Shown piece after piece: positions 266-32,076 of a DNA stretch of 32,651 nucleotides. The notes below the pieces were generated by a model that saw only the letters and a program-made list of their open reading frames with translations, did no database searches and had not been told where the DNA came from. Position 1 is the first letter of the stretch; each line of letters starts with the position of its first letter. The position numbers and the translations under genes were made by a program. Origin of the DNA: Armatimonadota bacterium (GTDB lineage: Bacteria; Armatimonadota; Fimbriimonadia; Fimbriimonadales; GBS-DC); the NCBI GenBank assembly GCA_030550775.1, contig JAUQOS010000017.1:1-32651 (forward strand), given 5' to 3'.

Positions 266-289
266 TGACACGCACGGAGGTGAAACCCT

Positions 290-1861
290 ATGCGACTGTT
301 AGCAACGGTGCTCGGTTTTGCGCTATCGCTCGTCAGTTGGGCGCAAGGCTTACAAGCAGGGGCTGCCGCCAACAAAATCACGCCCACCAAACAGGTGTTT
401 CTGGCAGGCTACGCCCCCAACCGCCCCAACACAGGTGGCGTGCACGACGACATTTGGGCACGCGCCGTCGTGGTTCAAGTCGGTCAGGAACGCCTAGCCA
501 TAGTTGTGTGCGACCTTCTGGGCTTGCTGCGCGATGATGTGCAAAAAATCCGCCAGCGCGTCAAAAGCGTGCCCCCAGAACGCGTGATGGTATTGTGCAC
601 CCATGTGCATTCTGCCCCCGACACCATTGGGCTGTGGGGCCCCTCACCGACCCAGTCTGGACGCGATGAGGAATATGTGCAGTTCGTGATTGAAACTGCC
701 GCCCGCACCGTAGACGAGGCTGCCAGCCGCCTTCAACCCGCCACGGTTGGATTCGCCAAAACCACCATCGAAGGCGTCGCCTACAACTTCCGCGTGGAGA
801 AAATCCTCGACACCGAAGCGGCTGTGATGCAGTTCCGCAGCAAGGAAGACGGCAAGGTAATCGCCACCCTAACCAACTTCGCCTGCCATCCCGAGGTACT
901 CAACAACGACCAACTCACTGCCGATTTCTGCCATTGGTATTACCAAACCGTGGAGTCCAAGGTCGGAGGCGTGGCGTTGTTTGCCAACGGCGCGCTAGGC
1001 GGGATGATTTCTCCTGCGCCCAACCCTGACCCGAATGTGCCCAAAGGGCGCGACTGGGCACGCGCTGAACGCTACGGCACCATTATTGCCAACCGCGCCT
1101 TAGAAGCCATCGCAAACGCGCGCTTCACCGACGAGGTGCGCTTAGAACACCGCGCGACTACCTACACGGTGCCTCTGGAAAACGAACGCTTCCGCCTCGC
1201 CTTGGCAGCGGGCATTATTCCTCAAGGTCCCTCGTTCGCCAACGGCACCATCACCACCGAGTCACACTTGATTCGGCTGGGGGATGCGGTGATGTTTACG
1301 ATGCCCGGCGAGGTGCTGCCCAACTTGGGGATTCTGCTCAAGCGACGACTTGCCCCCTATGGCGACCCTGTGTTTCTGTTCGGGCTGGCAAATGATGAGT
1401 TGGGCTACATCCTCAGCGACGCCGACTATTACCTAGACTTGTATAGCTACGAGCGAAGCATGTCGGTCGGTCCGGAGATTGGGCCTGCGATGATGCAAGC
1501 CGCGCGCCAGCTGATGGCGCAACTCACGCCGCGCACTGCTGCAGCCGAATCGCCAGTGGAGCAGGAGCTGCGCAAGTATCTGCAGCGGTTTCGCCCTGAG
1601 CGTGCGGGCAACTTCCGCGCGACTTATCGCCTAGTGTTGGAAGGTGCAGGCGAGTTCTACCTGCGTATCGCCGAAGGTAAGGCAACCCTGAGCCGTGAGG
1701 GTAGCCCCGCAGAAGCAGCCGTGACCATCAAAGCCCCCGCGCAGGTGTTTGTGGACATCATCAACGGCAGGCGCGACCCGCTGGACGCCTACAACACAGG
1801 CGAACTGCAAGTGGAGGGCGATCTCGGAGTTGCCCAATACCTGCTATTCGTGTTCGAGTAG
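290..1861 (+). CDS. Secreted neutral/alkaline ceramidase-like hydrolase with C-terminal SCP2-like domain
   Basis: This 523-residue protein starts with a signal peptide (about 1-20). Residues about 25-420 resemble the N-terminal domain of neutral/alkaline non-lysosomal ceramidases. That family is zinc-dependent and cleaves the ceramide amide bond. Visible motifs are HVHSAPD near residue 104 (the family's zinc-binding HTHSAP region), FACHPEV near 200 and NGALGGMISP near 237, which takes the place of the GDVSP-type nucleophile loop with Gly for the usual Asp. From about 430 to the end the sequence resembles a sterol carrier protein 2 domain, with the typical ending 'ELQVEGDLGVAQYLLFVF'. The ATG at 290 follows GGAGGTGA. 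The two-domain order suggests an enzyme with its own lipid-binding module, but the true substrate is unknown. It precedes an MFS gene by 35 nt. Confidence 0.8.
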   Translation: MRLLATVLGFALSLVSWAQGLQAGAAANKITPTKQVFLAGYAPNRPNTGGVHDDIWARAVVVQVGQERLAIVVCDLLGLLRDDVQKIRQRVKSVPPERVMVLCTHVHSAPDTIGLWGPSPTQSGRDEEYVQFVIETAARTVDEAASRLQPATVGFAKTTIEGVAYNFRVEKILDTEAAVMQFRSKEDGKVIATLTNFACHPEVLNNDQLTADFCHWYYQTVESKVGGVALFANGALGGMISPAPNPDPNVPKGRDWARAERYGTIIANRALEAIANARFTDEVRLEHRATTYTVPLENERFRLALAAGIIPQGPSFANGTITTESHLIRLGDAVMFTMPGEVLPNLGILLKRRLAPYGDPVFLFGLANDELGYILSDADYYLDLYSYERSMSVGPEIGPAMMQAARQLMAQLTPRTAAAESPVEQELRKYLQRFRPERAGNFRATYRLVLEGAGEFYLRIAEGKATLSREGSPAEAAVTIKAPAQVFVDIINGRRDPLDAYNTGELQVEGDLGVAQYLLFVFE

Positions 1862-14092: not shown

Positions 14093-16081
14093 CTATTGGT
14101 TCCAGCCCAGATGCCCGTTGATGGAGATGGTGTACACCGCTTGCCCCGTGATTAGATGGTAGATCGCAAGGGGCATATCAATCGCAAACTCGCCCAAAAT
14201 TACGCCGATGGCGACCGCGCGCAACTTCTCGTAGCCCGGCAAACCAAAGTAGCGGTTGACAAACAGCTTAATCAACAACACGACGCCCAAGCCAAACCAC
14301 ACGTAGTCAATGCCGAAGTTCATTGAAAGCGCATAGCCCGCAGGATGGATTGGAAAACCTGGCACGCGATAGCGGATGAAATCCAGCAACAGCACGAAGG
14401 TGAATGCGCCCGTAAAGAAAGCAATTGCGGTGACGTTGGGCGGGTAGCGGTTGTCGGCGAGTTGAGTGATGACGCCTGCCATGCCACCGCCCATATCGCC
14501 CGCGCCGTCGCGATAATAACGGTTGATGCTGAACAGCTCGCCCAAGAAGATGCCCAACAGCACAGCGGCGACCATTGCGAAGAACAACGCCTTCTGATTC
14601 AGGCGCGCGATTTCGCCCATCTTCATCGCCTCCAGCTGATAGGGCATCGGATGCGTGCGGTGCAAACGGTTCATAAAGTGGAAAGTGGTCATCAGCTTGG
14701 CAATCGTGGACTCCGTGAGGTTTTGGGTGCCCGTGAAGGCGATCATCAGCTGGTGGGGCCCCATAAACGCCATTTCGTGGATAGGTGCGCCTAGTTGCGC
14801 GCGCAGGCGTGCCACAATCACACTAAACGCCATATAAAGCAACACATAAATCGTCACCAACCACCATGGCAGCCCCACAGCAACGCCGATGCCAATCAGC
14901 ACCGTAAGGCTGGCGATTAGCCCGATGAACGCCCACCGCGCCGAAATCGCATAGCCTGGTTCAGGATTGATGCCCGTTTTGATTTCATGCCAGATTTGTT
15001 TGAGGTAGCCACGCGAGGCATAAACCACGCTCACAAACAGCCCCAGAAACGCGCCCCACGACTGTTCGCTGAAATAGGGCGGCTGCGGCACGAGGTATCC
15101 ACCGCCGAACACGCCCTGCTCATAGCCCATTGCGGCGGTGATTACCTGCATGCCCTTTCGCACGAAGTAAAACAGCACGCTGGAGAACAACAAGTCGTTG
15201 GGCACAAACACGCCGATTGCCGCCATATACGGGAATAGCCCCACAGGAATCCAGCCCACTTGGTTCCACGGCGGGGTGTGCAGGTATTCGTTCAGTGCGG
15301 CGAGGAAGCGCACATTGATGCGCGGAATCCAGGGGAAGAACATGTGCAAACCGTTGATGACGCCAATGCTAAAGGTCACGATGAACGCGCCCCACAAGTA
15401 GCGGCTGCGCCACAGTGGGGATTGCGGTTGACATAACAGCATGGGCACTTGGATGATGGGAAACGCAAGGCGTTCCTGCTGGGTCCATAGGCGACGCATC
15501 AGTGCGTTGATGCAGAGCATCGCCAGCGCTGCAGAGCCAAACAGCCCCATCCAGCCCAAGAAAATCGGTAGCCAAGTGCCCAGCTTGGTCAGCGCATACG
15601 GAAACTTGTAGCCCCCGATGCCATATTCGCGAATGGGTGCAGCTTCCTTATGGAATAACCAATCTACTAAGTGGGGCAGGATACGGTTGCGGTAGGTATC
15701 GTTGTACTCCGCGTATAGCCCAAACGAGTGCCACAGCGGTGCGCACACATTCATCCACTCCGCCGCCATCGCTGTGCCTACAAACAGAATGGTGAAAATC
15801 ACCACCAAGTCGGGCGTCTCCAAAAACCAGCGGCGGAACAGTAGTCGCCCAATCGCGTTCAGCAGAGCAACTGCCATAAGCGTGGCGACGGGCGGAATCA
15901 TCAGCGAGAAAATCACGCTAAGCACGATCTCCACTGCCCAGTAGGTTGTAAAGGGCAGCAAGGCAAAGCCAACCAACAGCGCGCGCAATCGCAAACCACG
16001 CGCCCGCTCCACCGTCGGAGTTGTGAGTAGTCCGTCGGGCTGCGCTTGGGGTAGTTCCGACTCAATCGGTCTGATTGCCAT
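14093..16081 (-). CDS. Multi-pass membrane protein of the DUF6785/DUF6784 type
   Basis: A 662-residue integral membrane protein with about a dozen or more hydrophobic segments. It shows conserved-looking blocks such as LCINALMRRLWTQQERLAFP, NGLHMFFPWIPRI and the C-terminal VNRYFGLPGYEKLR, which I recognise from the DUF6785/DUF6784 proteins common in Armatimonadota and Planctomycetota-like genomes. Their function is unknown; the architecture suggests a transporter. The start at 16081 is the Met after which similarity seems to begin; the frame stays open to 16204 but that part looks noncoding. It is followed on the same strand by the HlyD-like adaptor after a 176-nt gap in which I see no clear terminator or gene. 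Confidence 0.75.
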   Translation of the reverse strand: MAIRPIESELPQAQPDGLLTTPTVERARGLRLRALLVGFALLPFTTYWAVEIVLSVIFSLMIPPVATLMAVALLNAIGRLLFRRWFLETPDLVVIFTILFVGTAMAAEWMNVCAPLWHSFGLYAEYNDTYRNRILPHLVDWLFHKEAAPIREYGIGGYKFPYALTKLGTWLPIFLGWMGLFGSAALAMLCINALMRRLWTQQERLAFPIIQVPMLLCQPQSPLWRSRYLWGAFIVTFSIGVINGLHMFFPWIPRINVRFLAALNEYLHTPPWNQVGWIPVGLFPYMAAIGVFVPNDLLFSSVLFYFVRKGMQVITAAMGYEQGVFGGGYLVPQPPYFSEQSWGAFLGLFVSVVYASRGYLKQIWHEIKTGINPEPGYAISARWAFIGLIASLTVLIGIGVAVGLPWWLVTIYVLLYMAFSVIVARLRAQLGAPIHEMAFMGPHQLMIAFTGTQNLTESTIAKLMTTFHFMNRLHRTHPMPYQLEAMKMGEIARLNQKALFFAMVAAVLLGIFLGELFSINRYYRDGAGDMGGGMAGVITQLADNRYPPNVTAIAFFTGAFTFVLLLDFIRYRVPGFPIHPAGYALSMNFGIDYVWFGLGVVLLIKLFVNRYFGLPGYEKLRAVAIGVILGEFAIDMPLAIYHLITGQAVYTISINGHLGWNQ

Positions 16082-16234
16082 CCACTGGGTAACTTCGACG
16101 CAGGCTAAGAGAATCCTACTACCCCTTTCCCAAGGGGCAGTTGGTTGACCATCGGGTTCCTTGAGCAGCGGTCTCGGAAAACCTTGCGAGAAGTTTCCAA
16201 ACACCGCGTTATTCTTTCGGATAAGAGTCCCCTC

Positions 16235-21571: not shown

Positions 21572-24500
21572 TCAGCGGTTTGGTTCTGTGCCAATGCCCA
21601 GCAGTTCCAGTAGCGACGGTACGCGGATTTCGGGTGCGCCTAAGATGTACTGCGCGTTCAATGCCTTGTCAATCACATCAATTGCCTCGCTGTAGTGAGC
21701 GCGGGTGTAGGTGTCTTGCACACGAGGCAGCTGTTTGCTAAGCTGTTCGCGCAGCTGGCGCAGGTGGTAGCGTGCCAGCATTTTGGCGTCATCGGGTGCG
21801 CCCGTCTCTTTCGTGAGCATATCCACGAGTGTTTGGAGGTGGGCGCGTTGCAGCTGGCGACGCAAAGGCGAGACAGCACGCGGCGACTGTGCTTCCGCCC
21901 AGATGGCTTGCTGAAGTGTCTCAAACAGCTCCGCCATCGTGAAGGTGTTGCGTGGGTCAACAGCTTTGAACTCGTTGTTTGCCACGCGACGCAGGGTATC
22001 GGGCGACATCAGGCGCGCCAGCGTAGAGCGCTGGATGCTGCTGAGAAAGTCGCGCACTGGTGCATCGGGCGGCACTGCCCCGCCGAAGCCGTAGGGGTTT
22101 GGCGCGAGGCGCAAGTACAGCCCTTTTGGCAGGTCGAACGCCTTCTCGGCAAAGATGTAATCCACAATCAGGCGCAGGGCGCGTCGCTGCTTCTCCGCGC
22201 TCACGGGTTCAGAGGGCGGCAGCGCGTTCGGGTCGCTGGCGAAGTTGCGGCGGATGTGCAAGCCGCCGATGTAGCGGCTCAGCTGCACAGCAGCGCGGCT
22301 AAAGCTTGCCAGCGTGGCAAAGAAATAGCGCGTGAAGTCGTAGTAGCTCTCGCCCGCTGCAGGCACGCGCGAGGGCAACACACGCAGCAACTCGTGAGTG
22401 TCTTGCATCACCAGCTCCCAATACTCCAGCGGTTCCCTGCCCAGATCAAAGCGCGAGACATAGGGGTCGAAGCGGTCGGCATATTCATCGGTTTCGTAGG
22501 CGAGTTCTGGCTCGGTGTTGCGCCGCGCAATCTCAAGCAAGTAGGGGCGCTCATCTTCGGGCGTGCGCACATTCGGAAAGATGCGGTAGCCATACTCAAT
22601 CGCCCAGTAGTCGTAGGGTCCGATGGTGGGGTTCCAGTAGTAGGTGTTGGGCGCGTGCAGCGCCATTTGGTTGAACGGGTCGTAATCCATCACGCTAGCG
22701 ACTGTGCCGCGCGTGCGCACCAGCTCGCCATCTTTGAGCTGCTCTAAGGTAAGCATACGGCTAGCGACGAAGTTGTGGCGCAGCCCCAAGATGTGCCCCA
22801 TCTCGTGCATCGCCACCGATTTGAGATAGTCTTTCACAAACTGCTCTTCGGAGATTTTGGTGGCGCCACGTTTGCCCGCCAGCAACTCCATCATCACGAA
22901 ACCCTGCCACGCGCGATGCAAGGTATCTTGTGCAAAGGTACAAGCGTGCGGCGAGTTGTGGTCGTGCTCGCAGCAGTTGCGCTCGCGTTGCTCGGCTTCT
23001 CTGAACGCCGCCAGCGGGTCAATCTGGCGCAGGAACTGCAGGCGAGTGAAGCGCGCCATGTTGCCGTCAATCGTGATGCTGGCATTCAAGATTTGCCCCG
23101 TCAGCGGATTCGCGCGGAATAGCGCCACCGCGTAGCCGTTGCTAGGCGAGGTTACCCAGCGCACCACATTGTAGCGCATATCGGCGTGATCCCAGTCGGC
23201 ATCGTCGGGCATCTGCTTGACGACAATCGCGTCCTTGATGCCGATTTTTTCAAACGCCTTGTTCCACTCCAGAATGCCTTCGCGGATGGCGTCACGATAT
23301 TCGTATGGAATCGCGTTGTCCAGCCAGAACACGATTGGTTCTTTGGGGGGTGATAGTTCGGCGTTCGGGTCGGCTTTTTCGAGGTGCCAGCGCAGGATGT
23401 AGCGGCGGGTTTGGTCGTCGCGCTCGCGCGTGAAGTCTTCGTAGGCAGTCACGAAGTAGCCCACGCGCGGGTCGTACAGGCGGGGCACATAGCCGTTGTT
23501 GACGGGCAGCTCCCACAGGTTGTAGTTGACGGTGATAGGCACGCTGCGTGGATCAGCAAGGTTGGCAGCACCTGCCAAACCACCCAAAATTGCGCCTAAT
23601 CCGCCCCCACGCTGCGGACCACCCGCGAAGTGGTACGCCGTCTGAATAAAGATGTTGTTTGGAAACGCCTTCACTTGGTTGTAGACCGTTTTTTCGCGGT
23701 CAATCGCGTAGCTACCGCCTGCAGCCACGCTCACCAGTTGCTGGATTTGGATGAGGTCGGAGCGGAACAGGTTGCTGACATCAATCAATAGTCGCTTGCC
23801 CTCGTCCGATTTGGCTTCGATTTTGAACGCTTCCAGATAGGCATCGGCAAACGAGCGGCGCACGGAGCGCGCCACGGGCGTGTCGGGGTTCGCTCGGAAG
23901 CGGATGTTGGGCACTACCATCAAAATCTGCTCGTCGCGCTGCACGAACTTGAACAAAATGTCGTTGATAGGGGTGCCTGCTGCCAAGAAAAAGGTTGGTA
24001 AACCTTCGCTGACGGTCGCCTGCAAGAAGTAGAGCTTGCCCAGCTGGTCTTGCCGAATCTCCAGGTAGAGGGTGTCCTTGCCCGACTCTTTCTTGCGGTA
24101 GAGCGTGAACAGCCCCTCCAGCTTCTCGAAGTCTTTGGTGACTTCCTCTATGGTTTTTTCTTTCTTCTTGGGGTCTTCTTTTTTCTCCTCTTTCTTCTCG
24201 CCGTCGGCGGGCTTCTGCTCGTCGGCTTTTTGTTGCCCCTGCTGGGTGGGCTGTGCATCGGGCTGTTGCGTGGTTTGCGGCTGCGTGCCGTTCACGCCTT
24301 CTGGCAGTGGGCTGCCCTCGATGCGTTCAAAAACTAGATTGAAGGTGCTCGTGGCGCTTATCTCACCGAAGCTGGAAGTCGCTTCGCCCTTGATTGTGGC
24401 GTAGACCACATCGCCTGTGCGCAACTCCACAAGCATCTCGGATTCGCTGCTGCCCTTGACCTCGCCCGTGGCTGTGAAATTGACTTGGATTCGCGCCACG

Positions 24501-25045
24501 CGGGTGCCTTTCCAGGTTTCGAAGCCCTTCACGAGGTACTCGGCAGTGCCTGCGCTGATGCCCAGTTCCTTATTTTCTTCAAAGGTTTGGCTCCAGCGGT
24601 CGCCAACGCCCACAGGCTGCGTGCTGAATACCAAACTCGCGTTCGTGCCCAGCGCACCAATCGGCAATTCACCTCGCTGGTCAGCATCGCGCTTGATGAC
24701 TTCGCCGTTGGGCTTGACCGTGGTTTTGACCTTGCCTGCGCGCGCTCGGTCGGACAAGGGCACCCGTTGCCCGTTGATGGTGATTTCAAACGATTCGAAC
24801 TCCTCTTCCCAGGTGATGTTGCCTTCGGGCGAGACTTCTACGAAGCGGCGTACCAACACAGCCGTAGTCTCGCCCTGTACAGAGTTGACACCAAAATCAA
24901 AGCTAATGGTGCCACTCACTCGGTAGCGGGCGACCTGCCCTGCCTGAGCACGGTATTGCAGGAGCACTTTCTCTTGAGCAACTGCCCCCAGTAACGTTAC
25001 GAACGTCAACAGCCAAATAGTTGTGATTCGCCATCCGATTCGCAT
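21572..25045 (-). CDS. Large secreted zinc-dependent metalloprotease (DUF5117/DUF4953 type)
   Basis: A 1157-residue protein with signal peptide (about 1-23). The first about 250 residues form a beta-rich domain (LLQYRAQAGQVARYRVSG) of the kind found in DUF6263-like proteins. A low-complexity Gln/Pro then Lys/Glu-rich linker lies at about 265-315. From about 330 the DUF5117-like part (FTLYRKKESGKDTLYLEI) leads into the catalytic DUF4953-type region with HEMGHILGLRHNF at about 747, an extended metzincin-like zinc site (HExxHxxGxxHN). The family is widespread in Bacteroidetes and other phyla, but substrates are unknown. The ATG at 25045 follows GGAGG; the upstream open extension lacks similarity and includes the promoter region. 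Confidence 0.88.
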   Translation of the reverse strand: MRIGWRITTIWLLTFVTLLGAVAQEKVLLQYRAQAGQVARYRVSGTISFDFGVNSVQGETTAVLVRRFVEVSPEGNITWEEEFESFEITINGQRVPLSDRARAGKVKTTVKPNGEVIKRDADQRGELPIGALGTNASLVFSTQPVGVGDRWSQTFEENKELGISAGTAEYLVKGFETWKGTRVARIQVNFTATGEVKGSSESEMLVELRTGDVVYATIKGEATSSFGEISATSTFNLVFERIEGSPLPEGVNGTQPQTTQQPDAQPTQQGQQKADEQKPADGEKKEEKKEDPKKKEKTIEEVTKDFEKLEGLFTLYRKKESGKDTLYLEIRQDQLGKLYFLQATVSEGLPTFFLAAGTPINDILFKFVQRDEQILMVVPNIRFRANPDTPVARSVRRSFADAYLEAFKIEAKSDEGKRLLIDVSNLFRSDLIQIQQLVSVAAGGSYAIDREKTVYNQVKAFPNNIFIQTAYHFAGGPQRGGGLGAILGGLAGAANLADPRSVPITVNYNLWELPVNNGYVPRLYDPRVGYFVTAYEDFTRERDDQTRRYILRWHLEKADPNAELSPPKEPIVFWLDNAIPYEYRDAIREGILEWNKAFEKIGIKDAIVVKQMPDDADWDHADMRYNVVRWVTSPSNGYAVALFRANPLTGQILNASITIDGNMARFTRLQFLRQIDPLAAFREAEQRERNCCEHDHNSPHACTFAQDTLHRAWQGFVMMELLAGKRGATKISEEQFVKDYLKSVAMHEMGHILGLRHNFVASRMLTLEQLKDGELVRTRGTVASVMDYDPFNQMALHAPNTYYWNPTIGPYDYWAIEYGYRIFPNVRTPEDERPYLLEIARRNTEPELAYETDEYADRFDPYVSRFDLGREPLEYWELVMQDTHELLRVLPSRVPAAGESYYDFTRYFFATLASFSRAAVQLSRYIGGLHIRRNFASDPNALPPSEPVSAEKQRRALRLIVDYIFAEKAFDLPKGLYLRLAPNPYGFGGAVPPDAPVRDFLSSIQRSTLARLMSPDTLRRVANNEFKAVDPRNTFTMAELFETLQQAIWAEAQSPRAVSPLRRQLQRAHLQTLVDMLTKETGAPDDAKMLARYHLRQLREQLSKQLPRVQDTYTRAHYSEAIDVIDKALNAQYILGAPEIRVPSLLELLGIGTEPNR

Positions 25046-25226
25046 AGTCGCCTCCACGGAACGTAGGCTAATGTCTCCTACAGGTGTGTAGTGTACCTCA
25101 GAGAACAAGCAGTTTCAGCCGATCCGAGTTGCCCCTATAAGTCGGTTGTTCCGAGCGGGGCAAAGAATTTTACTTACGCAAAATCGCTGGGCAGCCACTT
25201 GGGTAATGTCAAGTGCAGGCTTACCT

Positions 25227-27819: not shown

Positions 27820-29490
27820 ATGTTGTTGCAGCGATTGGTGGAATACAGTCAGCGGCTGGCTCTGCCGCCCAGCCTCTACGCGCTCGTGCAAATCCATCGC
27901 CTGATAGATTTGGACTTGCAGGGCATGCCGCAGGGCATGATAGACATTCGCGTAGACGATGGCAAGCGCAAGCGCGGGCGAATCTATCCCGCGCCCAGCT
28001 TAGGCAACCTGCGCACCAGCAAAATTGCGCCTGTGCTGCTGTGTGATAACGGCGGCTATGTGCTGGGCAAGGTCGCTGCCGACAAAAAGGCGGAACGCGT
28101 GCACAGCCAACACGAGGCGTTTAAGCAACTTGTGCGCGAGTGTGCCACGCAGCTGAATCTGCCCGAGGTGCAGGCGGTGGCTCGATTCTACGAGCACCAT
28201 TTTAAGAAGCTCCAAGTGCCCGACGACTACGATGCGTCTGAGACCATTACCTTCCGCGTGAACGGGCAGTGGCTGATTGACCTACCCGCTGTGCAGCAGT
28301 TTTGGGCTGAGTACGCCGCTCGCGCCCACGAGATTACGGGCGAGCCTGCCGAGTGCATGGTATGTGGCGTTGTCAAACCTGCCACGCGTATTCATCTGGT
28401 GCCCACGAAAGGCATTCCGGGCGGGCAAAGCTCGGGCATGGCGCTGATTTCCGTCAACTCGGACGCATTTGAGTCATATGGGCTCAAGTCAGGCTTTGTC
28501 GCGCCCTTGTGTCTGGATTGCTCAGAGCGAGCGCTCAAAGCGTTAGACACGCTTATTCGCGATGAAAACACCCACCTTACGCTCGGCAACCTTGTGTATT
28601 GCTTCTGGACGCGCGAGGAGAGCCAGTTTAGCCCCACACGCCTGCTGGATAACCCCGACCCCCAAGAGGTCAAACGCCTTCTGAAAAGCGTGCAGGCGGG
28701 CAAGCCACGAGCCGCCCTCAGCGAACCCGATTTCTACGCCGTAGCGCTGTCGGCAAACAGTGCGCGCGTGGTGGTGCGCAGCTACCTCGAGCTGACCGTG
28801 CCTGAGGTGCAGCGCAACTTGGCGCAGTGGTTCGAGTGGCAGCGACTCAAGCGCACCTCCAGCGACGACGATACCCCCCTCAGCGTGTTCCGATTGGCGG
28901 TGAGCCCCTACCGCAAGGCGGAGGAGATGCCCCCCTATGTGCCCGAGATATTGATTCGCAGCGCGTTTACAGGCGTGCCGCTGCCCGATAGCCTGCTGCA
29001 GTCAGCCATTCAAGCCAACCGAAGGGCACAAGCGGTGTCTTACGAACGCGCTAAGCTCATCAAAACTATTCTCGCCTCACAAAATCCCTCGCTCAAGGAG
29101 GTGCTGATAATGCTCAATCGCGAACTTACAGACCCCGCCTACAAGTGCGGGCGATTACTGGCAGTGATCGAGCGCATACAAGGCGTGGCGATTGGCAACC
29201 CCAACGCGACGCTAACCGACAAGTACTACGGCAGCGCCTCAACTGCGCCCGCCAGCGTGTTCGGCGTGCTGCTGCGCATGACCCAGCCCCACCTTAGCAA
29301 ACTTCGCAAGCACAGCGAAGGACTGGCAATCCGGCTCGAGCGCGAACTCCACGAGGCGATGCCCGACCGCTTCCCCACCACCCTCAGCCTCAAAGAACAG
29401 GGGCTGTTTGCCCTAGGCTACTACCACCAGCGCAGCGAGTTCTTCAAACCCAAAGCCAACCAGGAGGTGACCCCCGATGAAAACGCTTGA
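27820..29490 (+). CDS. cas8c: Type I-C Cascade large subunit Cas8c (Csd1)
   Basis: A 556-residue Csd1-family protein. Recognisable blocks are the N-terminal MLLQRLVEYSQRL...LPPSLY segment, a zinc-finger-like set C179-x2-C182 and C231-x2-C234, and between them GIPGGQSSGMALISVNSDAF with ESYG, the best conserved Csd1 motif. Cas8c recognises the PAM and anchors target DNA in Cascade. The last 126 residues correspond to the small subunit Cas11c and can be translated separately from an internal ATG (29110). The ATG at 27820 follows GGGAGGTAAA. Its 3' end overlaps cas7c by 14 nt. Confidence 0.95.
   Translation: MLLQRLVEYSQRLALPPSLYALVQIHRLIDLDLQGMPQGMIDIRVDDGKRKRGRIYPAPSLGNLRTSKIAPVLLCDNGGYVLGKVAADKKAERVHSQHEAFKQLVRECATQLNLPEVQAVARFYEHHFKKLQVPDDYDASETITFRVNGQWLIDLPAVQQFWAEYAARAHEITGEPAECMVCGVVKPATRIHLVPTKGIPGGQSSGMALISVNSDAFESYGLKSGFVAPLCLDCSERALKALDTLIRDENTHLTLGNLVYCFWTREESQFSPTRLLDNPDPQEVKRLLKSVQAGKPRAALSEPDFYAVALSANSARVVVRSYLELTVPEVQRNLAQWFEWQRLKRTSSDDDTPLSVFRLAVSPYRKAEEMPPYVPEILIRSAFTGVPLPDSLLQSAIQANRRAQAVSYERAKLIKTILASQNPSLKEVLIMLNRELTDPAYKCGRLLAVIERIQGVAIGNPNATLTDKYYGSASTAPASVFGVLLRMTQPHLSKLRKHSEGLAIRLERELHEAMPDRFPTTLSLKEQGLFALGYYHQRSEFFKPKANQEVTPDENA
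29110..29490 (+). CDS. cas11c: Cas11c small subunit translated from inside cas8c
   Basis: An in-frame ATG at 29110 (Met431 of Cas8c) is preceded by a perfect AAGGAGG at 29095-29101, 8 nt upstream. The product would be 126 residues (MLNRELTDPAYKCGRLLAVI..., ...SASTAPASVFGVLLRMTQ...), helical and of the size known for Cas11c. Independent translation of the small subunit from within cas8 is established for type I-C and other type I subtypes. The SD here is better than that of the cas8c start itself, which fits the need for more than one Cas11 per complex. Confidence 0.85.
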   Translation: MLNRELTDPAYKCGRLLAVIERIQGVAIGNPNATLTDKYYGSASTAPASVFGVLLRMTQPHLSKLRKHSEGLAIRLERELHEAMPDRFPTTLSLKEQGLFALGYYHQRSEFFKPKANQEVTPDENA

Positions 29491-30379
29491 TGCACAAGCC
29501 ATCTATTGCGATCCTGAGCGACGGCACGACTTCGTGCTGCTGTTTGATGTGCGCGACGGCAACCCGAACGGCGACCCTGACGCGGGCAACCTGCCCCGCA
29601 TCGACCCCGAAACCATGCAAGGCATCGTCACCGATGTGTGCCTCAAACGCAAACTCCGCAATTACATCGACCTACTGTACGCCAACGACTACAACAACTT
29701 GGACTACGACGACCGTGGCTACGGTATTTTCGTCCGCGACAGCGGCGTGGCGCTGAACGCCAAAATCCGCGACGCTGCAGAGCAGCTGGGCGCTGCGAAA
29801 GAGAAAAAACGCGAAAACCCCGACGTACGCGCCGAACTGTGCAAACGCTACTACGACATCCGCATGTTCGGCGCCGTGCTAAGCACGGGCGACTATAACG
29901 CCGGGCAAGTGCGCGGTCCTGTGCAAATAACCTTCGCACGCTCCATTGACCCCATTGTGCCGTTAGACTTAGCGATTACGCGCGTGGCGATTACCCGCGA
30001 GGGCGAATCGAAAGAAACCGAGATCGGGCGTAAGCCGATAGTCCCCTACGGGCTATATCGGGCGCACGGTTTCTTCTCGCCTGCGCTGGCACAGCAGACG
30101 GGCGTCTCACGCGAAGACCTGCGTCTACTGTGGGAGGCGATGCTGCATATGTTTGAGCACGACCGCTCCGCCGCACGCGGCGAGATGACCCTGCGCGGAC
30201 TGTATGTGTTCACCCACGACTCTCCGCGCGGCAACGCGCCAGCCCACCTGCTGTTCGAAAAAATCGCGGTTCGGCGCGCGGAAGGCGTACAGACACCCCG
30301 CACCTTCAGCGACTACCAAGTAATCGTCGCCGACGACCTGCCGAACGGCGTGCAACTCCATCGATTGGACGCCGTCTGA
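29477..30379 (+). CDS. cas7c: Type I-C Cascade backbone subunit Cas7c (Csd2)
   Basis: A 300-residue RAMP protein with the Csd2 signature FDVRDGNPNGDPDAGNLPRI followed by a helical lid (VTDVCLKRKLRNYI) and the mid-region DIRMFGAVLSTGDYNAGQVRGPVQ. Cas7c polymerises along the crRNA spacer to form the Cascade backbone. AGGAGGTGA lies just upstream of its ATG at 29477, inside the end of cas8c, giving translational coupling. It ends at 30379, shortly before a perfect hairpin. Confidence 0.95.
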   Translation: MKTLDAQAIYCDPERRHDFVLLFDVRDGNPNGDPDAGNLPRIDPETMQGIVTDVCLKRKLRNYIDLLYANDYNNLDYDDRGYGIFVRDSGVALNAKIRDAAEQLGAAKEKKRENPDVRAELCKRYYDIRMFGAVLSTGDYNAGQVRGPVQITFARSIDPIVPLDLAITRVAITREGESKETEIGRKPIVPYGLYRAHGFFSPALAQQTGVSREDLRLLWEAMLHMFEHDRSAARGEMTLRGLYVFTHDSPRGNAPAHLLFEKIAVRRAEGVQTPRTFSDYQVIVADDLPNGVQLHRLDAV

Positions 30380-30385
30380 CCCGTA

Positions 30386-30410
30386 GGGCACGGGCACACA
30401 GCCCGTGCCC
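30386..30410. repeat. Perfect 10-bp hairpin between cas7c and cas4
   Basis: GGGCACGGGC (30386-30395), loop ACACA, GCCCGTGCCC (30401-30410). It starts 6 nt after the cas7c stop and ends 17 nt before the cas4 ATG, with the cas4 SD (GGAGG) in between. No T-run follows, so complete termination is unlikely. It resembles short palindromic elements scattered in many bacterial genomes and might stabilise the upstream Cascade mRNA or lower expression of the adaptation genes. Confidence 0.75.
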
Positions 30411-30427
30411 CTCTCTGGAGGAACCCG

Positions 30428-31048
30428 ATGCCAGCCCCCGATCTGTTGGAGTTCTGGAACGAGGCAGAGATCGTGCCCATCTCCGCCCTCGAACATTACG
30501 CTTATTGCCCGCGCCAGTGCGCACTAATCCACATCGAACAGGTGTACGAAGAGAATGTGTACACTCTGCGTGGGGCTGCGCTCCACGAGCGCGTTGACCA
30601 AGCCGAAGGTTTGATTGAAGACGGTTTTGTGTTAGAGTATGCCTTACCTTTGTGGAGCGTTCGGTTGGGGCTTATTGGACGCGCGGATGTGGTCGGCTTT
30701 CTGCCCGATGGCACCCCCTACCCAATTGAGTACAAGTCGGGCAAGCGCAAGGTGAAATACCACGACGATGTGCAGCTCTGCGCCCAAGCGATGTGTCTTG
30801 AGGAGATGCTGCAACGTGCCGTGCCCAAAGGTTCCATCTACTACTACGCCAGCCGTCGACGGCGCGAGGTGGAATTCACCGCCGACCTACGCGCCCTCAC
30901 CGAGCAGGTCATCCACGAGACTCGTCAGATGTTTCGTTCAGGGCGCACCCCACCGCCCCTCAACGACGCCCGCTGCCCCGATTGCTCGCTCATTCGCCTC
31001 TGTATGCCTGATGTAATCGCACGCTTACAACAGGAGCAGACACGATGA
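30428..31048 (+). CDS. cas4: CRISPR-associated Cas4 (PD-(D/E)XK exonuclease, adaptation)
   Basis: A 206-residue Cas4. The RecB-like nuclease residues are all present: H53 (LHERVD), D87 (GRADVV), E101 and K103 (PIEYKSGK) and the QLCAQAM motif near 117. The iron-sulphur cluster cysteines are C27 (YCPRQC) with C183, C186 and C192 ([12 protein letters not shown]). Cas4 trims and orients prespacers with the correct PAM for Cas1-Cas2. The ATG follows GGAGG. Its stop overlaps the cas1 start (ATGA), the usual I-C coupling. Confidence 0.95.
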
Positions 31049-32076
31049 TTTATCAACTACTCAACACACTGTATGTAACAGTGGATGGCACCTACCTACG
31101 CCTCAATAATGAGGCGGTGGAAGTTACGCAGGAAGGTACCCTACTCAAGCGCGTGCCGTTGCACCACTTAGGAGCAATTGTAATGCTGGGCAACATCTCA
31201 GTAAGCCCCCCACTGATGGAGCGCTGTGCTCAGGAGGGACGCTCGCTGGTCTGGCTTGACGAATCAGGGCGGTTCCGCGCCCGCGTGGAGGGTCCCGTCT
31301 CCGGCAATGTACTCTTGCGCCGTAGTCAACACAAAACGCACGACGACCCCCACGCCACCTGCAACTTGGCACGGAGCTTCGTACAGGGCAAACTTCACAA
31401 CCAACTCCAGGTTTTGCAGCGGGCACTCCGCGAGCATCCCACCCCAGAGACGACCCAACTCCAAACGGCAGTTACACAAATCCGCACCCACCTACAGGCG
31501 CTTGAACATGCCCATGACCTCGACACTGTGCGCGGTGTGGAAGGCTATGCCAGCAAAATCTATTTCGACGCGCTGGACGCCCTGATTACGGCACAACGCG
31601 AGTCGTTCCGCATGCTGGGGCGTACTCGCCGACCCCCACGCGACCGTTTCAACGCCTTGCTCTCGTTCGTCTACAGCCTGCTGACTGTGGACTACGTCAG
31701 TGCACTGGAAGGAGTCGGTTTAGACCCGCAAGTGGGCTATCTGCACGCCCTGCGCCCTGGACGCCCAGCACTGGCGCTCGACCTAATGGAAGAACTGCGC
31801 CCAGCACTTGCCGATCGCTTCGCGCTAAGCTTGGTCAACTTACAACAAATCAACCCCAGCCACTTCGAGGAGCGTCCCGGCGGCGCGGTACTGCTCAACG
31901 ACACGGGACGACGCGAAGTCATCGTTGCTTACCAAAAGCGCAAACAGGAACAAGTCTACCACCCCGTGCTGCAAACGCGCATTCCATGGGGGTTGGTGCC
32001 GCATATTCAGGCACGACTACTTGCCCGCGTACTACGCGGGGATATTTTGGAATATCCACCATTTACGATACGATGA
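31045..32076 (+). CDS. cas1: CRISPR integrase Cas1 (type I-C)
   Basis: A 343-residue Cas1 with an N-terminal beta domain and C-terminal helical domain. The metal ligands are visible: E166 (GVEGYAS), H234 (GYLHAL) and D246/E249 (LALDLMEELRP). With Cas2 it integrates new spacers next to the leader. The full catalytic set and length suggest a working enzyme. The start overlaps cas4 by 4 nt. Unlike the compact cas4-cas1 junction, 162 nt separate it from cas2. Confidence 0.96.
   Translation: MIYQLLNTLYVTVDGTYLRLNNEAVEVTQEGTLLKRVPLHHLGAIVMLGNISVSPPLMERCAQEGRSLVWLDESGRFRARVEGPVSGNVLLRRSQHKTHDDPHATCNLARSFVQGKLHNQLQVLQRALREHPTPETTQLQTAVTQIRTHLQALEHAHDLDTVRGVEGYASKIYFDALDALITAQRESFRMLGRTRRPPRDRFNALLSFVYSLLTVDYVSALEGVGLDPQVGYLHALRPGRPALALDLMEELRPALADRFALSLVNLQQINPSHFEERPGGAVLLNDTGRREVIVAYQKRKQEQVYHPVLQTRIPWGLVPHIQARLLARVLRGDILEYPPFTIR

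Follow-up and report, generated by a model that had tools for sequence, protein, structure and literature searches.

An SCP2 domain fused to a neutral-ceramidase-like hydrolase in Armatimonadota

The window considered here, that is, the whole stretch of 32,651 nucleotides analysed from an Armatimonadota bacterium, contains at positions 290–1861 (+ strand) a complete open reading frame that starts with ATG and encodes a 523-residue protein, in which a neutral-ceramidase-like hydrolase domain is joined to an SCP2 domain. The same fusion recurs in relatives, where it is found as a single ORF in at least 29 distinct copies from 27 Armatimonadota genomes. The protein is a member of the PF04734 superfamily that carries SCP2 and not a proven neutral ceramidase, from which it is set apart because the score of the NCBIfam model, the active-site arginine and the C-terminal Ig-like domain of those enzymes are all missing. 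As to its function, the explanation we favour, tentatively and at somewhat less than an even chance, is that the protein would be secreted and act as a zinc amidase, with SCP2 holding on to the acyl tail of its substrate, an N-acylated amphiphile.

Domain architecture and fold

The start codon lies 6 nt downstream of a Shine-Dalgarno-like GGAGGTGA (276..283, +) read in the sequence. Two tRNA genes occupy positions 1–169 on the opposite strand, upstream of the ORF, and an MFS transporter gene starts at 1897, downstream of it. Residues 1–18 (290..343, +) form a probable Sec-type signal peptide without a lipobox Cys, as judged from a hydropathy scan and a reading by eye that places the likely cut after Ala18. 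Export of the fusion protein by this signal peptide is probable, which fits the location outside the cell proposed in the preliminary description of this DNA. A hydrophobic 12-residue stretch (mean Kyte-Doolittle value of at least 1.87) precedes the domain in 28/28 fused rows tested, and a hydrophobic N-terminal stretch is also present in many relatives that lack SCP2.

The hydrolase domain spans residues 19–414 (344..1531, +), and its ceramidase-like nature, first read by eye, is confirmed by both family and fold. In particular, Ceramidase_alk (PF04734) matches residues 24–207 with an E value of 1.9e-14 and 53.6 bits, over the Pfam-A cut-off of 32.1, and a sequence search of the PDB with the fusion protein returns the neutral ceramidase 2zws (1.4e-7) together with the SCP2 proteins 3cnu (4.9e-4) and 3bn8 (4.7e-3). 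The AlphaFold2 model obtained with 68 diverse alignment rows (alignment A2, made of 53 of 58 references and 15 members of the host's own family) has a mean pLDDT of 93.4 and a pTM of 0.82; with the 15 close relatives only, the mean pLDDT is 78.2. Residues 17–414 of the model align with 2zws, the neutral ceramidase of P. aeruginosa, at Z 40.0 (375 residues, 2.7 A, 21% identity), up to chain residue 488 of 2zws, where the alignment stops, and the hydrolase domain gives Z 36.6 with human neutral ceramidase (ASAH2, 4wgk). Foldseek returns the same ceramidase and SCP2 families for the model.

The SCP2 domain covers residues 420–523 (1547..1858, +). The two strings in which an SCP2 pattern had originally been noticed, VTIKAPAQVFVDIINGRRDP and LQVEGDLGVAQ, are both present in the 523-residue translation, and a significant C-terminal match is indeed found: PF02036 aligns with residues 436–518 at an E value of 2.4e-12 and 47.5 bits, well over the Pfam-A cut-off of 21.3, and the last 104 residues searched alone retrieve SCP2 at 1.1e-13. 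The best fold match of model residues 420–523 is the C-terminal domain of the alkylsulfatase Pisa1 (2yhe_A, residues 546–650; Z 16.3 over 104 residues), with further matches to SdsA1 (Z 14.8) and human MFE-2 (1ikt, Z 13.5). Many matches lie within a few Z units of one another, the alkylsulfatase C-terminal domains being the closest (Z 14.3–16.3). The Alkyl_sulf_C model (PF14864) scores 17.9 bits on the fusion protein, under its cut-off of 27, which is passed by other fusions (L119, 27.2 bits; L100, 40.9 bits). In the fusion, SCP2 takes the terminal place that another C-terminal domain occupies in solved neutral ceramidases, an Ig-like one in the human enzyme (PMC6952831). Across nine pairs of fused copies, pairwise dN/dS is 0.04–0.15 for the hydrolase and 0.03–0.23 for SCP2, with synonymous sites near saturation, and by this measure both halves look to be under constraint.

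Predicted zinc site, loop and arginine

We take the zinc ligands of the P. aeruginosa ceramidase (PaCD) to be H97, H204, E411 and Y448, and its arginine to be R160. In the fusion, the predicted ligands are His105 (602..604, +), in the motif THVHSAP whose second His is His107, aligned with PaCD H97; His200 (887..889, +), in FACHPEV, aligned with H204; Glu341 (1310..1312, +), in MPGEV; and Tyr373 (1406..1408, +), in NDELGYI. The pairing of Glu341 and Tyr373 with PaCD E411 and Y448 comes from a weak second segment of the pairwise alignment to 2zws that is not significant by itself. In a 101-row alignment, all four residues are invariant in the 26 fused rows of the subfamily to which the protein belongs, in support of the zinc site that had been proposed, and both zinc-site His are kept in 101/101 rows. 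In the other 75 rows, the Glu341 column holds Glu (61), a gap (13) or His (1), and the Tyr373 column holds Tyr (62), a gap (12) or Ala (1).

The fusion thus shares with neutral ceramidase (2zws, 4wgk) the catalytic fold, the predicted zinc ligands, the second His and the pocket Tyr, which is found at position 385 in 26/28 fused rows, whereas it differs in having SCP2 as C-terminal domain, a shorter catalytic domain, a GGM loop and Phe or Tyr at the position of human Arg257. The conserved ligands and pocket Tyr, along with the Z of 40.0 to the P. aeruginosa enzyme, would suit an ordinary ceramidase that digests the ceramides of other organisms and in which SCP2 has replaced the Ig-like domain. 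We regard this as improbable, as the NCBIfam neutral ceramidase model (NF041649), whose cut-off is 1200, scores 25.6 bits, the stretch separating two aligned blocks (of which the second is weak) has some 60 residues fewer in the fusion hydrolase than in PaCD, and the arginine is not in its place. Indeed, the site expected for PaCD R160 and human R257 reads Asn166-Phe167-Arg168 (785..793, +) in the alignment, with Phe167 as the counterpart of human Arg257 and the Arg sitting one residue on. Arg occupies the human Arg257 position in 0/63 subfamily rows versus 38/38 rows outside the subfamily. Among the 63, 52 have it one residue beyond and 11 have it at neither place, and in the host's own family the residue aligned with Arg257 is Phe or Tyr. 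Since the subfamily either carries the arginine of proven ceramidases at a shifted place or lacks it, ordinary ceramide is probably not the substrate.

A further claim of the preliminary description was that the Asp of a nucleophile loop is replaced by Gly, hinting at a different substrate. The change itself is real: the loop GALGGMISP (residues 234–242; 989..1015, +) carries Gly238 (NGALGGMISP), and position 238 is occupied by Gly (60) or Ala (3), never by Asp, in the 63 subfamily rows, and by Asp (31), Asn (6) or Ser (1) in the other 38. What finds no support in the form first given is its reading as a nucleophile loop informative on the substrate, since the change is subfamily-wide and the P. 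aeruginosa ceramidase has Asn there (GNLSP), not Asp. The subfamily loop is also one residue longer than loops of the GDVSP type, and in the pairwise alignment to 2zws it is Met239, not Gly238, that stands opposite the Asn, so that the counterpart of the Asp is alignment-dependent. In the structure of human neutral ceramidase, the corresponding loop is not described as a nucleophile (PMC6952831). Gly for Asp is a mark of the 63-row subfamily and not of the fusion; as a mark of the fusion it is ruled out, because none of the 63 rows has Asp, although just 26 of them are fused to SCP2 and 35 have no fused or paired SCP2. The division into 63 and 38 rows follows the tree, while the loop text would class L019 (GAMGD) as GGM and L066 (GAQGS) as other. 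Because the two groups are old, loop and arginine go together by common descent and not through repeated events. Judged from these alignments, the missing arginine at the Arg257 position says more for a different substrate than the loop Gly does.

Distribution and history of the SCP2 module

Among the 291 Armatimonadota genomes that make up the phylum sample, PF04734 has matches in 206 and PF02036 in 57. Fusions were detected with models from 15 family members run on the retrieved loci, and the count of 29 is a lower bound because two long SCP2-bearing ORFs (G043:C1, 482 aa; G195:C36, 747 aa) are not included; moreover, a diverged SCP2 could escape the Pfam model. The 29 are distributed among the host's own family (15), genus g92 of family f19 (10, in 10/10 genomes), genome G191 (three) and genome G209 (one). 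An assembly artefact, which was also considered, is ruled out by the presence of the 29 fusions across 27 genomes. In the own family, 15 of 18 genomes have the fusion, with full-length relatives of the ORF in 14 genomes other than the host. As for the remaining three, the copy of G013 is cut by a contig end, no orthologue was found in G006 (85% complete), and G011 (85% complete) has a diverged hydrolase copy that ends before SCP2, with no PF02036 match anywhere in its genome. The SCP2-less hydrolase of G011 still looks to be under constraint (dN/dS 0.11–0.19 over five pairs whose synonymous sites are near saturation). This copy (L015) has an altered loop, GGPIWALP, and a branch longer than those of its same-genus relatives.

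Outside Armatimonadota, no fusion was seen in a thin cover of viral contigs, plasmids and genomes of other phyla. A scan of genome contigs yields 14 loci, of which 13 are titled Armatimonadetes or Fimbriimonadales/Fimbriimonadia and one 'Bacterium HR15'. No relative was found in viral contigs. Plasmids gave matches in 43 records, and in none of these did a single place cover 80% of the query. At least 101 genomes lie outside the phylum (392 searched minus 291); with at most three candidates scored per genome, eight of them matched at E <= 1e-25, and the matches listed for seven of the eight end before SCP2, the eighth being G335. In a small phylum of seven genomes the hydrolase is present in 7/7 and SCP2 is reached by 0/19 matches, and another small phylum (five genomes) has no match at E <= 1e-50. 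A literature search with little cover of subscription journals returned no paper on a ceramidase-SCP2 fusion.

The two domains also occur as neighbours. In G116 and G117, from one genus, hydrolase and SCP2 are separate genes with an ATGA overlap, in which the TGA closes the hydrolase (402 and 398 aa when counted from stop to stop) and the ATG begins the SCP2 gene. The split SCP2 proteins match Pfam SCP2 at 2.7e-15 and 8.7e-16, and the split hydrolases score 21.9 and 21.5 bits with PF04734, under the cut-off of 32.1, and 9.1e-124 and 1.8e-121 against the model of alignment A1. The domains therefore stay paired without fusion. In both genomes, the two genes lack any start resembling a signal peptide, and the split pair is probably cytoplasmic. 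These arrangements bear on the idea that SCP2 is purely structural, serving dimerisation or stability. Homologues without SCP2 exist, as such a role would allow, and the dimer interface of the alkylsulfatase SdsAP involves residues of all three domains (PMC5426288); set against this, the module is also encoded by a separate gene coupled to the hydrolase and found in stand-alone proteins, and a purely structural role appears doubtful to us.

In a hydrolase tree of 101 rows made by a quick method, the SCP2 label changes seven times, and gain and loss are not distinguishable by the tree, which omits duplicates, long X runs and hydrolase parts below 250 aa and hence the fusion L121. In the SCP2 tree (41 rows, thinned, short and weakly supported), L121 is placed beside L120, both from G191; the hydrolase of L120 is outside the GGM group (GDINP loop), and that of L121, whose N-terminal part is masked, has a GGMVT loop. 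Near-sister SCP2 domains on hydrolases of different groups are therefore a sign of a portable module, and SCP2 seems, from these sequences, to have moved between hydrolases. The domain also ends three GHL10 glycosidase-like proteins of family f22 (L123:2117-4177, L124:1171-3291, L127:466-2706).

Other combinations are present in G191. A 902-aa ORF with masked bases (L193:3777-7772) has SCP2 near its N-terminal end and is followed, 217 nt further downstream on its own strand, by a GGM-group hydrolase. In one ORF (L058:1147-3693), a ceramidase-like domain precedes an AAT domain (PF03417, acyl-CoA:6-aminopenicillanic acid acyl-transferase), which puts two different amide-bond enzymes on a single chain, and a 950-aa ORF (L177:2746-5595) places PhoPQ_related (PF10142) ahead of a ceramidase-like domain belonging to the 63-row group.

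Gene neighbourhood was dropped as a functional clue, as it is not conserved and no neighbour points to lipid metabolism. At 14 named loci, the other genes of the window are not found beside the hydrolase, save for weak matches of 33–44% identity to two (L035, L040). When flanking ORFs of up to 54 loci are clustered, the top clusters are antisense ORFs of the hydrolase itself, and the others span at most nine loci, none in a fixed position across lineages. A gene that is esterase-like by eye only lies just downstream of the hydrolase in L160, L163 and L165, all without SCP2.

Possible roles of the fusion

A close parallel is offered by the type III alkylsulfatases SdsA1, Pisa1 and SdsAP, which likewise combine a zinc hydrolase with a terminal SCP-2-like domain. 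These act on alkyl sulfates and have a metallo-beta-lactamase-like catalytic domain and an extra dimerisation domain (PMC5426288), whereas the catalytic domain of the fusion has the ceramidase fold. By analogy with them, SCP2 may bind the tail of the substrate, and the presentation of a lipid substrate to the zinc site, as first suggested, is plausible. Human MFE-2 is a second case in which a lipid-binding SCP2 domain, similar in fold to that of the fusion, is part of an enzyme of lipid metabolism; it is a peroxisomal enzyme, whereas the fusion protein is probably exported.

According to the favoured explanation, after export by the Sec signal peptide a single zinc on His105, His200, Glu341 and Tyr373 would activate water and the N-terminal domain would cut an amide, a chemistry suggested by the fold and the conserved residues. 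SCP2 would bind an N-acylated amphiphile, e.g. an N-acyl lipid or an N-acyl amino compound, by its hydrocarbon tail, and could thereby raise the local substrate concentration or take up the released fatty acid. The presence of the fusion in 15/18 own-family and 10/10 g92 genomes and the invariant zinc ligands count in its favour, as do the significance of both domains in sequence and fold, the constraint that both seem to be under, the coupled genes of G116 and G117, the signs of a portable module in G191 and the structural closeness of SCP2 to the alkylsulfatase C-terminal domains. Against it, the catalytic domain dispenses with SCP2 elsewhere, since 35/63 subfamily rows lack it; the G011 hydrolase is constrained without SCP2; no lipid genes are found nearby; SCP2 need not imply a lipid substrate, because it ends the three GHL10 glycosidase-like proteins; and a distant homologue is located among amino-sugar genes. 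The latter, on a Devosia neptuniae plasmid (L157:5998-7269, 32% identity, ceramidase-like), is surrounded by amino-sugar catabolic genes, including those for glucosamine-6-phosphate deaminase, a sugar isomerase, an amidohydrolase and a sugar ABC transporter, a setting that hints at sugar amides as the substrates of part of the family.

The GHL10-like proteins and the Devosia homologue would also agree with SCP2 being a tether that docks the exported enzyme on the membrane at the cell envelope, with a small or sugar amide as the substrate; as the protein has no lipobox, an anchor of a non-covalent kind would be of use to it. Tethering at the surface is hard to square with the G116/G117 pair, which lacks signal-peptide-like starts and is probably cytoplasmic, and we consider the tether unlikely, though it keeps some weight.

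If the amidase with a tail-binding SCP2 is the correct explanation, the fusion would be a second zinc hydrolase, of a fold unrelated to that of alkylsulfatases, with an SCP2 domain of its own, and a candidate enzyme for the cleavage of N-acyl lipids. The coupled gene pair of G116/G117 and the SCP2-less close relative represent natural test pairs for the role of SCP2. In a broader and rather speculative version, to which we give a low probability, SCP2 would be a portable lipid-handling module on exported Armatimonadota hydrolases, and the GGM subfamily would be a separate class of zinc amidases, not ceramidases, that with SCP2 deacylate some N-acyl lipid of the phylum or of its neighbours.

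The window also contains other genes of note. Positions 14093–16204 (− strand) encode a 703-aa DUF6785/DUF6784 protein of unknown function, and positions 21572–25108 (− strand) a 1178-aa met-zincin protein with DUF5117/DUF4953. The region 27820–32076 carries Csd1 (PF09709) and Cas1 genes, which point to what we take to be a type I-C CRISPR-Cas locus.
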